The notes beneath the pieces are model-generated. The model did not search any database, had not been told where the DNA came from, and worked only from the letters and a program-made list of their open reading frames with translations. DNA of 36,384 nt from contig NZ_JAGBLU010000092.1 of NCBI RefSeq assembly GCF_017635265.1, positions 1 through 36,384 on the forward strand, given 5' to 3'. Each line of letters begins with the position of its first letter. Positions within the stretch are counted from its first letter, which is position 1. Of the stretch, positions 15,143 to 35,451 are shown in pieces. The stretch is from Butyrivibrio sp. (GTDB taxonomy: Bacteria > Bacillota > Clostridia > Lachnospirales > Lachnospiraceae). The position numbers and the translations under genes were made by a program.

Positions 15143-15172
15143 ATTGACAATTTCGGTCAATCATAATAATGT
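15143..15172 (+). promoter_or_regulatory. Promoter with MarR-like inverted repeat, ABC exporter leader
   Basis: ATTGAC-aatttcg-GTCAAT (15143-15161) is a 6-bp inverted repeat that includes the -35 box TTGACA (15144-15149). TAATGT at 15167-15172 lies 17 bp further and can be the -10. The layout resembles operators of MarR-family repressors that control drug exporters, but no MarR gene lies nearby. Confidence 0.5.
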
Positions 15173-15213
15173 ATTTATAGTCGATAAAATTACGAAAGGA
15201 GGTAAACACAATA

Positions 15214-15288
15214 ATGATTATCAGAGTAAGACTTAATAATTTAGTTAATAGGAACAATGTGGTTGCCTCGCAGGAGTTTGCTTTATAA
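15214..15288 (+). CDS. 24-residue leader peptide upstream of ABC exporter
   Basis: A 24-codon ORF starts with ATG 15214 behind a near-perfect ribosome site, AAAGGAGGT at 15195-15203 with 10-nt spacing, the strongest in the region. The peptide begins MIIRVRLNN and ends SQEFAL; it is basic at the start, rich in Asn and Val, and has no membrane helix or signal. A strong terminator begins 21 nt after its stop codon. The arrangement parallels bmrB upstream of the bmrCD multidrug exporter of Bacillus subtilis, where translation of a leader peptide controls an attenuator. A regulatory peptide is therefore the preferred reading; a function of the peptide itself is not excluded. Confidence 0.55.
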   Translation: MIIRVRLNNLVNRNNVVASQEFAL

Positions 15289-15309
15289 GTGAGCTTGAAT
15301 TGATATAGC

Positions 15310-15345
15310 AGCGCGGTTTCCACGAATGGAAATCGCGCTTTTTTT
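15310..15345 (+). terminator. Strong terminator 1 in ABC exporter leader
   Basis: GCGCGgTTTCCA pairs with TGGAAAtCGCGC (12 bp counting one G-T pair, loop CGAA), then TTTTTTT. It is an intact intrinsic terminator lying between the leader ORF and the exporter genes with no new promoter clearly in between, so exporter expression requires read-through or antitermination. Confidence 0.85.
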
Positions 15346-15373
15346 ATGCAATAAGATATATGGTGAAAGGCTA

Positions 15374-15448
15374 ATGCGTAAGGACGGTAGGATTTCCATG
15401 GGAGGTCCTATCGTTTTTTTGACAACTAGTTTTAGCAAAAGCGCTTAG
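15374..15448 (+). CDS. Possible second 24-residue leader ORF overlapping terminator 2
   Basis: ATG 15374 to TAG 15446 encodes 24 residues beginning MRKDGRISMGG and ending TSFSKSA. GAAAGG precedes the ATG but only 3 nt away, so initiation would be weak. The frame runs through the whole of the second terminator hairpin, so a translating ribosome would unfold it. It ends 20 nt before the exporter start codon. It may be chance. Confidence 0.3.
   Translation: MRKDGRISMGGPIVFLTTSFSKSA
15384..15420 (+). terminator. Terminator 2 in ABC exporter leader
   Basis: CGGTAGGA (15385-15392) pairs with TCCTATCG (15406-15413), with inner TCC/GGA pairing, and is followed by seven T residues. It is a second complete terminator within 75 bp of the first. 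Confidence 0.75.
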
Positions 15449-15468
15449 CGCAAAAGGATGTGATTTAT

Positions 15469-17223
15469 ATGAAAAAGTATATTTTAAGAAACTGGTGGAG
15501 ATATACACTTGGGGGCATATGCCTTGTATGCAGTACTTTGGTGGATATTCTCGTACCGTTTATAACACTTTCCATGGTGGATGATGTCATCGTGGGAAGA
15601 AATATGAATATATTCAGAAGAGATATTTTTCTGTATGTGGCAGCAGGTCTTGGAAGGGCAGCTTTCCAGTTTGTTAAAGAGTTTTGCTGTGATATGTCGG
15701 GATGCCGCGTGGCATCAGGCCTTAGAAAGGATATGATGAAGCATATCTTTTCACTTCACAAGGAGTATTTTGATAAACACAATACCGGTGAACTTATGGC
15801 AAGAGTTAAGGATGATGCGGGTTCGGTGTGGGACCTTACAGGCTTTGTGGGAATGCTCATGACAGAGGCTACAGTTTATTTCTTTGGGGTAATCATCTGC
15901 ATGGTGTCACTTAACTGGAAACTTAGCATTGTTCCTCTTGTTTTTATGCCGCCGCTGGCATACATAGCTCTTCATCTGGAAAAGAAACTGAATAAGGATT
16001 ATGACGATACCAGTGAGAAAAATGCCGCTCTTACCAAAGTGGTTGAAGAGAATATCTCCGGAGTAAGAACTGTGAAGGCCTTTTCAGCTGAGAGCTCAGA
16101 GCTTAAGAAATTCGACGAAAAGAACCTTGAATATGCGCAGGCAAATAAGAAGTTTGCCACAGACCTTGCAGATACAGATCCGCTTCTTGGAATGATTCCC
16201 AAGATCATGCAGACTTTCGTTGTGGCAATCGGAGGATATGCTGCGATAAAGGGAAGTATTACCTATGGAACTCTTGTGGCGTTCGTGTCTTATTCTATCA
16301 GCATTGTATGGCCCATAGAGAACCTTGGATGGATGCTGTCTCTTATTTCTCAAGGCCTTGCAGGGTATAAAAAGATTGAGAAGGTGCTGGATACAAAGCC
16401 GCAGATTACTGATGCTTTAACAGAAGCAGATGATGAAAAGAGCTTTCCTGATGCGGTAAAAGGTGATAACAGCGGCGAGATTTCTTTTGACAGTGTTAGT
16501 TTTACAATTGACGGTAAGAGAATCTTAAAGGATATTTCTTTTACCATTGAGAAGGGTAAAACTCTTGGAATCATGGGAGCTACCGGTGCAGGAAAGAGCA
16601 CAATCGTTAACCTTATTGAAAGGTTTTACGATGCTTCGGAAGGCTCTATAAGAATAAACGGAATAGACATAAGAAAAATGCCGCTTGCGGACATTAGGGC
16701 TTTTTCATCAGTAGTAACGCAGGATGTATTTCTTTTCTCTGATACCATTACTGAGAATGTGAGGCTTGGAAGCAAGGCAACTATGGATGAAATAACTGTA
16801 AGGCAGGCCATAAAAAGCGCCCACGCCAAGGATTTTGTTGAAAAGATTACTGACAGTTACGGAGCTGTAATCGGAGAGAGGGGAATCGGACTTTCAGGCG
16901 GACAAAAGCAGAGACTTTCAATTGCCAGAGCTCTTGCCAAGAGGGCAGATCTTCTTATTCTTGATGATTCCACATCGGCCCTTGATATGGAGACTGAGGC
17001 CGCCATACAAAAGGAGCTCAAGGAAAAACGCGATATGAGCAAGATTATCATCGGACATCGAATTTCTTCAGTTAAGGATGCCGATGAGATCATAGTTTTG
17101 GAAAAGGGAATGATTAAAGAAAGGGGCACTCATGCAGAACTTTTAGCCCAAAAGGGGCTATATTACAGTACCTATGAGGCTCAGTACGGAGACTACAGAA
17201 AGGCTATGGCTTCCGGAGAATAA
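15469..17223 (+). CDS. ABC multidrug-type exporter half-transporter, degenerate ATP site
   Basis: The 584-residue protein has a six-helix exporter membrane domain (about 10-300) fused to an ATPase domain (about 335-575). Walker A is GATGAGKST (370-378), the signature LSGGQ (475-479) is canonical, and Walker B reads LLILDDST with Asp499 and Asp500, where the catalytic Glu is normally at position 500. It pairs with the next gene as a heterodimer; the two proteins resemble BmrC/BmrD, LmrC/LmrD and TM287/TM288, in which one site is degenerate and one hydrolyses ATP. Start at ATG 15469, with AAGGA 10 nt upstream; the GTG at 15460 has its site too close. Substrate unknown; drugs, peptides or lipids are possible. 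Confidence 0.9.
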   Translation: MKKYILRNWWRYTLGGICLVCSTLVDILVPFITLSMVDDVIVGRNMNIFRRDIFLYVAAGLGRAAFQFVKEFCCDMSGCRVASGLRKDMMKHIFSLHKEYFDKHNTGELMARVKDDAGSVWDLTGFVGMLMTEATVYFFGVIICMVSLNWKLSIVPLVFMPPLAYIALHLEKKLNKDYDDTSEKNAALTKVVEENISGVRTVKAFSAESSELKKFDEKNLEYAQANKKFATDLADTDPLLGMIPKIMQTFVVAIGGYAAIKGSITYGTLVAFVSYSISIVWPIENLGWMLSLISQGLAGYKKIEKVLDTKPQITDALTEADDEKSFPDAVKGDNSGEISFDSVSFTIDGKRILKDISFTIEKGKTLGIMGATGAGKSTIVNLIERFYDASEGSIRINGIDIRKMPLADIRAFSSVVTQDVFLFSDTITENVRLGSKATMDEITVRQAIKSAHAKDFVEKITDSYGAVIGERGIGLSGGQKQRLSIARALAKRADLLILDDSTSALDMETEAAIQKELKEKRDMSKIIIGHRISSVKDADEIIVLEKGMIKERGTHAELLAQKGLYYSTYEAQYGDYRKAMASGE

Positions 17224-17265: not shown

Positions 17266-19050
17266 ATGGCTATAAACAGCACCAGAGAAGATGAAGAACT
17301 AAAAGAGAGCATAAAGCTTGATGTCTTAAAAAGGCTTTTGGCGAATCTTCTTATATATAGAGGAAAAATTGTTTTGGTCACGCTACTCATTTTTTTGACT
17401 GTAGTGATATCGACGGTTTATCCCCTTATGATTGAAAAAGTAATTGATGATAAAATAGTAAACGGTGATGTAAGTGGGCTTTTTATTATGGCGGGAATAA
17501 TGATTGTTCTTGCCGTTGTGAGCTATTTGGCCACCAGAATCTGGAGAAGGATAATGGCGGATATTTCCAATGATATGATACTGAATATCAGGAGAAAGCT
17601 TTATATTCATATTCAGGAGCTTGGAGTTGATTTTTTTGACCAGAGACCTTCAGGTAAGATTCTTGCAAGAGTTACAGGTGATGTAAATGCGTTAAAAGAG
17701 GTCCTCTCAAGCACAGTGACGACTCTTGCCCCGGAAGCGGTGAGCCTTGTTGTTATCCTTGTGATAATGATTATAAAAAGTCCTGTACTTTCTCTGTCAG
17801 CTGCCGTGGCGGTTCCCATTATTATGTGCGGATTGTACTTTTGTGAGATTCTGGCTCATAAGAGATGGCAGATGCATAAAAAGAAAGATTCGAATATGAC
17901 GGCGTTTATTCACGAAGGCATTGAAGGGGTATCTGTTATACAGAGCTTTAACGCTGAAAAAGAGGCAGAGAGAGAGTTTAGCGGTATAGTTGATGATGTT
18001 ATCAAAGCTTTCAGGTCTGCGGTAATAATTACTGACCTTTACAGTCCTACAATTGAGATTGCAGGAGGTCTTGGAACAGCTACATTATATTATCTTGCAG
18101 TGACAAAGCTTGGAGTTACAGCAGAGTCTATAGGTACACTATCTGCATATGTACTGTATCTTGGAATGTTCTTTAATCCCATAAGGAATCTTGCCAACTA
18201 TTACAACAAGCTGATAACCAATCTTTCATCAGCAGAAAGAGTTTACGAGATAATGGACATGGAGCCTCTTGTAAAAGATAAAGAGAAGGCTGAGGATATG
18301 CCGGAAATTCAGGGAAATGTGGAGTTTGACCATGTGACCTTTGCTTATCCGGATGAGCCTGATGTTGATATCCTTCATGATGTCAGCTTTAAGGCAAAAA
18401 AAGGTGAAACCATTGCACTTGTCGGACCCACAGGTGCGGGCAAGACTACTATAGTGAGTCTTATAAGCAGATTTTATAATACCAAAAGCGGAAGAGTACT
18501 CGTTGACGGCTATGATATCAGCAAAGTAACAATACAGTCCCTCAGAAGTCAGCTGGGAATCATGACTCAGGATAACTATCTGTTTTCCGGCACCATAAGA
18601 GACAACATCAAGTATGGAAGACCTAGTGCTACCGATGAGGAAATGATAGCTGCAGCCAAAGCCGTTCATGCCCATGATTTCATCAATATGATGGAGGATG
18701 GATATGACACGGTTATAACAGAAAGAGGAGGTGGTCTCTCCAACGGTCAGAGGCAGCTGATTGCTTTTGCGAGAACTCTTTTAACCAATCCCAAGATACT
18801 GATACTTGATGAAGCTACGTCAAGCATAGATACCAAGACGGAAATTTTGGTTCAAAGAGGAATAGAAGAGCTTTTAAAGAAGCGAACCTCATTTGTTGTG
18901 GCACACAGGCTTTCAACTATAAAAAATGCTGACAGGATATTCTTTATCGATGATGGAGGAATTCTTGAGTGGGGCAATCATGAGAGCCTTATGGCAAAAA
19001 AAGGAGCTTATTACAACCTTTACGCATCGCAGTTTGTGAGTGCTTCATAA
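17266..19050 (+). CDS. ABC multidrug-type exporter half-transporter, canonical ATP site
   Basis: This 594-residue partner has the same plan: cytoplasmic N-terminal elbow helix, six transmembrane helices (about 35-325), and an ATPase domain (345-590). Walker A is GPTGAGKTT (387-395) and Walker B ILILDEAT has the catalytic Glu516. Its signature is LSNGQ (491-495), departing from LSGGQ. Across the dimer, this protein's intact Walker B faces the intact signature of the upstream partner, while its altered signature faces the partner's Asp-for-Glu site, exactly the consensus/degenerate pairing expected of heterodimeric exporters. GGGAGGTG precedes the ATG by 8 nt; the gap from the upstream gene is 42 nt. 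A strong terminator follows. Confidence 0.92.
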   Translation: MAINSTREDEELKESIKLDVLKRLLANLLIYRGKIVLVTLLIFLTVVISTVYPLMIEKVIDDKIVNGDVSGLFIMAGIMIVLAVVSYLATRIWRRIMADISNDMILNIRRKLYIHIQELGVDFFDQRPSGKILARVTGDVNALKEVLSSTVTTLAPEAVSLVVILVIMIIKSPVLSLSAAVAVPIIMCGLYFCEILAHKRWQMHKKKDSNMTAFIHEGIEGVSVIQSFNAEKEAEREFSGIVDDVIKAFRSAVIITDLYSPTIEIAGGLGTATLYYLAVTKLGVTAESIGTLSAYVLYLGMFFNPIRNLANYYNKLITNLSSAERVYEIMDMEPLVKDKEKAEDMPEIQGNVEFDHVTFAYPDEPDVDILHDVSFKAKKGETIALVGPTGAGKTTIVSLISRFYNTKSGRVLVDGYDISKVTIQSLRSQLGIMTQDNYLFSGTIRDNIKYGRPSATDEEMIAAAKAVHAHDFINMMEDGYDTVITERGGGLSNGQRQLIAFARTLLTNPKILILDEATSSIDTKTEILVQRGIEELLKKRTSFVVAHRLSTIKNADRIFFIDDGGILEWGNHESLMAKKGAYYNLYASQFVSAS

Positions 19051-24699: not shown

Positions 24700-24744
24700 A
24701 AAAACCGCCTGAGCATTCCACTTATAAGCGGTTGCCCAGGCGGT
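24700..24744 (-). terminator. Riboswitch-controlled terminator
   Basis: On the minus strand, ACCGCCTGgGCA (24744-24733) pairs with TGCtCAGGCGGT (24715-24704), with an additional CCGCTTATAAGTGG hairpin at the apex, then TTTTT (24704-24700). The 5' arm is the conserved CCGCCTGGGC of the ZTP aptamer, so ligand binding and termination exclude each other. Confidence 0.88.
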
Positions 24745-24806
24745 CGACGATTCATAATATTTTCCATACTCCCATGTGGTTACCCACTTATCCGCCAGTT
24801 GTATGG
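24731..24806 (-). promoter_or_regulatory. ZTP (pfl) riboswitch
   Basis: Reading the minus strand, the aptamer shows the hallmark elements of the pfl motif: CTGGCGGA (24798-24791), AGTGGG-TAACCAC (24788-24776), GGGAGTATGG, and the distal CCGCCTGGGCAA (24743-24732) that forms the pseudoknot. ZTP/ZMP accumulates when 10-formyl-THF is short; binding keeps the 3' strand out of the terminator and turns on the downstream cyclohydrolase and transformylase genes, which use that cofactor and consume ZMP. Confidence 0.92.
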
Positions 24807-24839
24807 ACAAGTTAAACATACACGTTTTGATTTCAAATT

Positions 24840-35301: not shown

Positions 35302-35323
35302 ATGATTGATTAAACAAAATATT

Positions 35324-35408
35324 ACCGCTAGGGGAGCTTTGCTGAGATCGTACATTTTTATGTCGGACCCTTATCACCTGAACCGGATAATACCGGCGTA
35401 GGGAAGCA
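35324..35408 (+). promoter_or_regulatory. TPP riboswitch (THI element)
   Basis: The aptamer shows the standard order: ACCGCTAGGGGAGC, CTGAGA at 35342-35347, ACCTGAACCGGATAATACCGG (conserved core at about 35377-35396, cited here by position) and CGTAGGGAAGC. Thiamine pyrophosphate binding should favour the terminator just downstream and shut off thiT. Confidence 0.95.
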
Positions 35409-35451
35409 ACAGATATTTATTGTTAAGCATGTTTTATTACGTGATAATGAT

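Follow-up and report, generated by a model that had tools for sequence, protein, structure and literature searches.

A probable ribosome-mediated attenuator ahead of a heterodimeric ABC exporter of Butyrivibrio, with the leader ORF's own Shine-Dalgarno sequence as a predicted pairing segment

The stretch of DNA analysed in full in this study, hereafter the window, consists of 36,384 nt of a Butyrivibrio contig, in which a two-gene ABC exporter (15469-17223 and 17266-19050) lies downstream of a leader of approximately 300 nt (15144-15468), the nearest named exporter records being those of Butyrivibrio proteoclasticus P18 and Butyrivibrio sp. Su6 and AE2015 (89-90% identity). The features recognised are listed below, with the pairing segments numbered 1 to 4 as in the trp operon.

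15144-15172, forward strand: sigma-A-type promoter, TTGACA-17-TAATGT, promoter-like and recurrent in the close family
15144-15160, no strand: inverted repeat TTGA-N9-TCAA over the promoter, a possible operator, present in 13 of 24 close-family loci
15195-15210, forward strand: segment 1, the Shine-Dalgarno sequence AAAGGAGGT (15195-15203) plus spacer of the leader ORF, complementary to segment 2
15214-15288, forward strand: leader ORF (ORF1), 24 codons, MIIRVRLNNLVNRNNVVASQEFAL, conserved among homologous loci
15223-15231, forward strand: codons R4-V5-R6, a +X+ arrest motif, found early in 21 of 22 distinct peptides
15258-15271, forward strand: segment 2, an anti-Shine-Dalgarno block inside the leader ORF (core UUGCCUC, 15263-15269)
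15274-15296, forward strand: apical hairpin between segments 2 and 3, containing the leader ORF stop codon, in the minimum free energy fold of the window
15310-15345, forward strand: terminator 1, 13 pairs, dG about -20
15311-15323, forward strand: segment 3, the 5' arm of terminator 1 together with the first base of its loop, segment 4 being the 3' arm
15326-15334, forward strand: part of the 3' side of terminator 1, complementary by duplex comparison to 15391-15399 in terminator 2
15374-15448, forward strand: ORF2, a second 24-codon ORF, probably not a gene
15383-15420, forward strand: terminator 2, 15 pairs, 3-nt loop, dG -20.2, inside ORF2
15469-17223, forward strand: ABC exporter half 1, ILDD in place of ILDE, presumably a degenerate catalytic site
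17266-19050, forward strand: ABC exporter half 2, canonical ILDE

The pairing of adjacent half-transporters, one with ILDD, which we take to signify the degenerate site, and the other with ILDE, identified the exporter as heterodimeric; among solved structures both halves resembled YheI/YheH (BmrCD) and TM288, with P-glycoproteins yielding higher scores. The promoter form TTGACA-17-TAnnnT was present in 23 of the 24 close-family loci for which 70 nt or more of upstream sequence was available, the exception (L035) retaining the -35 element with a spacer of 18 nt. No promoter that might bypass both terminators was apparent between 15421 and 15468, TTGACA at 15419 having no fitting -10 element by eye. 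No Rfam family or riboswitch reached gathering score at the leader of the window or in 12 related loci, and a known riboswitch or other Rfam RNA was on these grounds rejected as the identity of the leader.

A preliminary description of this DNA had reported a 24-codon ORF with a strong ribosome site followed by a terminator, and both features were recovered, the terminator by consensus scan as well as by folding. The conservation of these elements was assessed at 32 homologous loci, all with upstream sequence, which were fetched by exporter protein similarity and not by motif: a strong ribosome site, a small ORF of 22-28 codons and an anti-Shine-Dalgarno block preceded the exporter gene in 31 of them, the sole miss being L053, which has no leader (L062, where upstream sequence is absent, and the weak matches L065-L068 were not counted). 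Such recurrence indicates that ORF, ribosome site and block together exceed chance. Of these 31 leader-bearing loci only L057 and L058 lacked a script-detected terminator 1. A conserved putative ORF with a strong Shine-Dalgarno sequence and a conserved N-terminal motif is thereby situated upstream of a terminator, and the earlier suggestion of a translated leader peptide plus attenuator before a heterodimeric exporter gains support from the conserved N-terminal part of the predicted peptide; the anti-Shine-Dalgarno block, the alternative pairing of terminator 1, the +X+ motif and the presence of the switch at other resistance-type genes had all been overlooked.

Conservation within the leader ORF is highest at GGUUACCUCG, which is situated near the 3' end and is complementary to the ORF's own GAGGUAA. 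All seven pairs of the resultant helix (1:2) were kept in 18 of 19 distinct close-family leaders, L045 retaining the pairing through a both-side change at one pair and L050 losing one pair, while that of the window includes one G-U. More distant exporters have GGAGGUAGG with CCUGCCUC, likewise paired, and in one such leader GGAGGCAGG is paired with CUGCCUC; in the spacer ahead of the AUG some extra pairs also co-vary. By duplex energy helix 1:2 is not group-specific, the combination of segment 1 of the GNAT/RsgA group with segment 2 of the group designated ABC-1 giving -18.7 and the own pairing -15.1.

Segment 3, comprising the 5' arm of terminator 1 and the first base of its loop, is complementary to the same block as well, so that three predicted helices, an anti-antiterminator (1:2), an antiterminator (2:3) and the terminator (3:4), are mutually exclusive. 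When applied to the antiterminator alignment RNAalifold yields only the more stable terminator, and the antiterminator helix was therefore specified explicitly for testing. In an alignment of 16 leaders (the single-terminator leaders L037 and L050 being left out) 97.5% of its 160 cells were paired, with both-side changes in three cells, all at one pair (G-C to A-U twice and to U-A once). This is the outermost pair (G-C in 11 leaders, A-U in two, U-A in one, G-U in one and broken in one), and its changes are not explained by the terminator because the 3' partner sits in the terminator loop. In shuffle controls three both-side cells were reached in 1 of 500 trials, and one pair with both-side changes in 208 of 500; versions of the helix slid along the alignment were 26-56% paired, a slide of three columns having two both-side pairs at 54%. 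The corresponding values for terminator 1 were 91.3% of 208 cells paired and nine both-side cells. L037 and L050 (the latter by eye) have a different terminator arm, which is still complementary to the block.

In a comparison of five leader groups, own 2:3 duplexes had energies of -17.3, -16.2, -11.0, -10.2 and -11.4 kcal/mol, as against -5.1 to -10.3 kcal/mol across groups. The preference for own arms is strong in ABC-1 and ABC-2 (-17.3 and -16.2), moderate in the GNAT/RsgA group and the mixed group (-11.0 and -11.4) and slight in the distal exporters (-10.2 for own arms, -9.8 with ABC-1 arms). Shuffled arms reached the own energy in 178/3600, 92/2400, 234/5000, 130/1200 and 110/1200 trials for the five groups. 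The scan beyond the ABC-1 set required GAGG(T/C) and (A/G)CCTC, and the five central pairs are consequently not independent evidence there. The 5' arm is shared, both helices are kept and own pairing exceeds crosswise pairing, as is characteristic of a mutually exclusive antiterminator and terminator.

A terminator was found under a stricter rule in 67 of 73 distinct leaders, and predicted folds of nascent RNA ending before the 3' arm of terminator 1 were compared for 67 leaders in three ribosome states. With the stretch from Shine-Dalgarno sequence to early codons masked, a state which assumes that a stalled ribosome covers the Shine-Dalgarno sequence (doubtful in the window), 2:3 formed in 62 of the 67; with the ribosome at the stop codon it formed in eight. 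In the absence of a ribosome 1:2 formed in 52, and 2:3 also reached four pairs in 26, mostly ABC-1 and ABC-2 leaders: 11 of 12 ABC-2 leaders reached four pairs of 2:3 and only five reached four pairs of 1:2. The window itself was mixed when free of ribosomes (5.6 pairs of 1:2 versus 4.8 of 2:3) and retained 6.4 pairs of 2:3 with the ribosome at the stop codon. For the full-length leader of the window the terminator was the more stable fold in both states, and the switch would therefore have to be kinetic. Apical hairpins resembling that of the window were seen by eye, uncounted, in many relatives.

From the observed conservation, exclusive complementarity, antiterminator covariation and recurrence at resistance-type genes, we infer that the leader is probably a four-segment, ribosome-mediated transcription attenuator induced by translation inhibitors; the ribosome states, the identity of the drug and antitermination itself are put forward in what follows as a proposal. 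When no ribosome occupies the start of the leader ORF, its Shine-Dalgarno sequence (segment 1) would pair with the anti-Shine-Dalgarno block (segment 2), leaving the two arms of terminator 1 (segments 3 and 4) free to form the terminator, and a ribosome reaching the stop codon would cover segment 2, with the same outcome. An inhibitor that holds the ribosome at the first codons would engage or block segment 1, whereupon segment 2 could capture segment 3 as the antiterminator, and RNA polymerase would read through into the exporter genes. Terminator 2 would be a second barrier, perhaps opened once the 3' side of terminator 1 is freed.

The nature of the signal may be sought in the N-terminal part of the leader peptide. 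Arg/Lys-X-Arg/Lys beginning at residues 3 to 5 was present in 21 of 22 distinct close-family peptides, with L045 as the exception; in the exporter family Lys and Arg are exchanged while the middle residue varies. Over 2000 shuffles the controls averaged 2.4 peptides with the motif and never exceeded eight, and the other two reading frames gave none and four. The motif is of the kind known from arrest peptides such as ErmDL (MRLR) and the TlrB leader. In 16 of 17 leaders 39 nt separate the expected P-site codon from segment 2 despite a shift in start codon, a constancy due in part to common descent, since those leaders are related. In a ribosome stalled at the motif, the Shine-Dalgarno sequence would lie 17 nt upstream of the P codon in 13 of the 17 leaders and 23 nt upstream in the remaining four, the window included; these distances coincide with or exceed the usual position of the ribosome's trailing edge, and the stalled ribosome may therefore not cover the Shine-Dalgarno sequence of the window. 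An arrest nearer the AUG would cover it.

In the tlrB leader, as described, the arrest motif is R-X-R and responds to tylosin, with toeprints placing X in the P site (PMC6851288), and ketolides are reported to stall ribosomes mainly at +X+ (PMC8298421); by its motif the predicted peptide suggests macrolides or ketolides as inducers for the exporter family. It is nevertheless quite possible, albeit short of an even chance, that the same attenuator responds to any slow or blocked initiation, as with lincosamides or pleuromutilins, the +X+ motif being incidental. Leaders with no early +X+ do have the same segment architecture, the Shine-Dalgarno sequence would lie beneath a ribosome at the AUG, though perhaps not beneath one at codon 5, and vmlR and cplR are described as answering such drugs by means of three-codon ORFs (PMC9226507, PMC10201436). 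However, retention of the motif through Lys/Arg exchange in all but one of the distinct peptides, and its fixed distance to segment 2 in all but one of the leaders compared, both argue against an incidental role.

Terminator 2, which the preliminary description had correctly located wholly inside ORF2, is absent from the consensus scan that lists terminator 1 and was revealed by folding. It is mostly conserved, being present in 15 of 18 distinct close-family leaders (16 less that of L037, a spurious row since it is located inside the ABC gene); L037 and L050 have one terminator each, and L046 has by eye a further hairpin whose U tract is poor. A relay, in which the 3' side of terminator 1, freed by 2:3 capture, invades and opens terminator 2, appears on balance rather unlikely. 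Complementarity does exist between the 3' side of terminator 1 and the 5' arm plus loop of terminator 2, and it is stronger within own leaders than crosswise (mean -16.7 versus -15.6 over 16 rows including the spurious L037), with a mean z of -3.4 relative to shuffles; the own mean was reached in 45 of 5000 permutations, which ignore relatedness, and duplication of a terminator would yield equal complementarity because the 5' arms are alike.

In L051, L052, L054 and L064, upstream of the ABC gene, the 5' arm of a second U-tract hairpin seemed by eye to lie upstream of terminator 1, such that the terminators are nested.

Control by a repressor bound to an inverted repeat over the promoter, with the remainder of the leader a constitutively leaky terminator, finds some support in the repeat noted previously, which is present at 15144-15160 over the promoter spacer and has as its immediate upstream neighbours genes for a receiver-domain protein and a hybrid histidine kinase. 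That reading is improbable: among the 24 close-family loci with sufficient upstream sequence TTGA-N9-TCAA is present in 13 and absent from 11, whereas the RNA elements occur in nearly all, and the receiver protein has no match to a Pfam DNA-binding domain. With the repeat so distributed it is not general in the close family, and general control through it was rejected.

The conservation check proposed earlier for both small peptides in orthologous leaders came out in favour of the N-terminal part of ORF1 and against ORF2. The start of ORF2 has no ribosome site (score 0), and its residues are a translation of the terminator stem itself. Among the close-family loci, only the nearest relatives L032, L055 and L061 have an open frame encoding similar residues, and there the starts differ; in L033 and L036 such a frame is interrupted, and the others have none. 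ORF2 was consequently rejected as a second leader peptide, and the idea of two independent peptide/terminator modules in series, although ORF2 does span terminator 2 in the window and shares an internal ATG with L032, fails on these counts, as well as on the one-terminator leaders L037 and L050, and deserves next to no credence.

By analogy with described systems, the attenuator preferred here has the logic of vmlR, a sensor like that of tlrB and a target like bmrCD. The vmlR leader of B. subtilis is described with the same anti-antiterminator, antiterminator and terminator logic, opened by a stall on a small ORF, and with an apical hairpin, but its ORF has three codons, its Shine-Dalgarno sequence is single-stranded ahead of the anti-antiterminator hairpin, and a hairpin partly sequesters the Shine-Dalgarno sequence of vmlR (PMC9226507). 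In tlrB (yxjB) of B. subtilis a tylosin-dependent arrest at R-X-R likewise relieves a terminator; its RYR, however, is at the C terminus of a nine-residue peptide, the stalled ribosome blocks the terminator directly, and the account identifies no overlapping antiterminator (PMC6851288). The bmrB-bmrCD system of B. subtilis shares a leader peptide before a heterodimeric ABC exporter, induction of bmrCD by ribosome inhibitors, and a terminator, anti-terminator and predicted anti-anti-terminator, but as described all three structures lie within ORF nucleotides 60-162, so that the Shine-Dalgarno sequence of bmrB takes no part, and the role of the anti-anti-terminator is described as unclear (PMC4191407), whereas it is here the predicted pairing of the Shine-Dalgarno sequence with the 3' end of the ORF. 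The cplR leader of Clostridioides difficile also has a 5' hairpin with a small ORF, a terminator and an antiterminator, before an ABC-F target; it differs in its three-codon ORF (MRI) and in a terminator that also sequesters the Shine-Dalgarno sequence of the main gene (PMC10201436). The patA attenuator of Streptococcus pneumoniae, by way of contrast, is described in an account that does not mention a leader peptide, patAB being induced by fluoroquinolones and DNA damage (PMC4319486). The apparently new feature is the predicted deployment of the leader ORF's own Shine-Dalgarno sequence as segment 1, which is absent from these descriptions of the compared systems and would give the anti-antiterminator a concrete form. 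Among the literature matches listed (titles and abstracts) there was no Butyrivibrio or Lachnospiraceae leader of this kind, which leaves its absence unproven.

The arrangement recurs before other genes. A covariance model of the stretch from Shine-Dalgarno sequence to block had matches at E 0.05 or better in 35 of 79 Butyrivibrio genomes, and a pattern of the CGAGG form was found at 56 places in 45 of the 79, as against six matches to the reversed pattern; 43 of the 56 places were read as loci. From L032 onwards, 86 distinct leader copies were recognised by script, preceding 53 ABC exporters, 15 RsgA, ten GNAT-RsgA and four GNAT genes, and one each of ABC-F, MATE, AAA P-loop and A/B-hydrolase-like protein genes; 31 of the 53 are window-family exporters, mostly fetched by exporter similarity. 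The ABC-F protein scored above the NCBIfam cut-off for ribosomal protection-like ABC-F, and the MATE protein above its own. At least four copies are held by the source genome: that of the window, two before GNAT genes (C48 and C34) and one before RsgA (C130).

Leaders were also recognised in seven sampled genomes of other genera of the family (L071, L072/L089, L081, L085, L087, L094 and L095), followed by exporters or RsgA. The exact pattern GGAGGTAA...TTACCTC had matches in 19 of 299 family genomes, but reversed-pattern controls were more frequent, and most of these matches are therefore chance; six places (L071, L072, L081, L085, L087 and L089) were taken as leaders on the strength of ORF and downstream gene, L089 resting on a weak ABC match. 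The pattern AGGAGGTAGG...GCCTGCCTC was found in two of the 299 genomes with no control matches.

We would give an even chance to a broader reading, in which these leaders constitute an RNA regulon of the Lachnospiraceae, and of Butyrivibrio above all, directed against translation inhibitors: one 'self-closing' switch, in which the Shine-Dalgarno sequence of a small ORF is captured by an anti-Shine-Dalgarno sequence in its last codons, would stand before exporter, ABC-F, MATE, GNAT and RsgA-type genes, the drug in each case being set by an N-terminal sensor peptide that can be exchanged, and two serial terminators being opened by relay in the exporter family. On this reading one mechanism would unite many putative resistance genes from bacteria of the rumen and gut, the sequence of each leader peptide would predict the drug class its gene answers, and the RsgA-type GTPases and GNAT-RsgA fusions would become candidate responders to ribosome-targeting drugs. 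RsgA and GNAT-RsgA are no more than putative resistance genes.

Several observations were made at individual loci. At L129 (399-1799) the gene behind the leader encodes an RsgA GTPase fused to an N-terminal part that resembles GNAT (weak Pfam match, E 7e-6), and the fusion is also present in L130-L132, L144, L149, L154, L157, L160 and L167. In L129-L133 a GGUCUCC-like stretch between terminator and gene is by eye complementary to the GGAGAC ribosome site of the gene, which suggests added translational control. At L117 (G007:C18, from 1513 onwards) an intact-looking leader is followed by an ABC fragment only, with no terminator found, and the fragment may be a decayed gene or an assembly error.

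Elsewhere in the window, a ZMP/ZTP riboswitch (24727-24812, reverse strand) and a TPP riboswitch (35320-35421, forward strand) were both detected at gathering score, and two closely similar tandem ORFs (169-1311 and 1404-2549), with a C-terminal hydrophobic segment, are by eye probably the product of a duplication.
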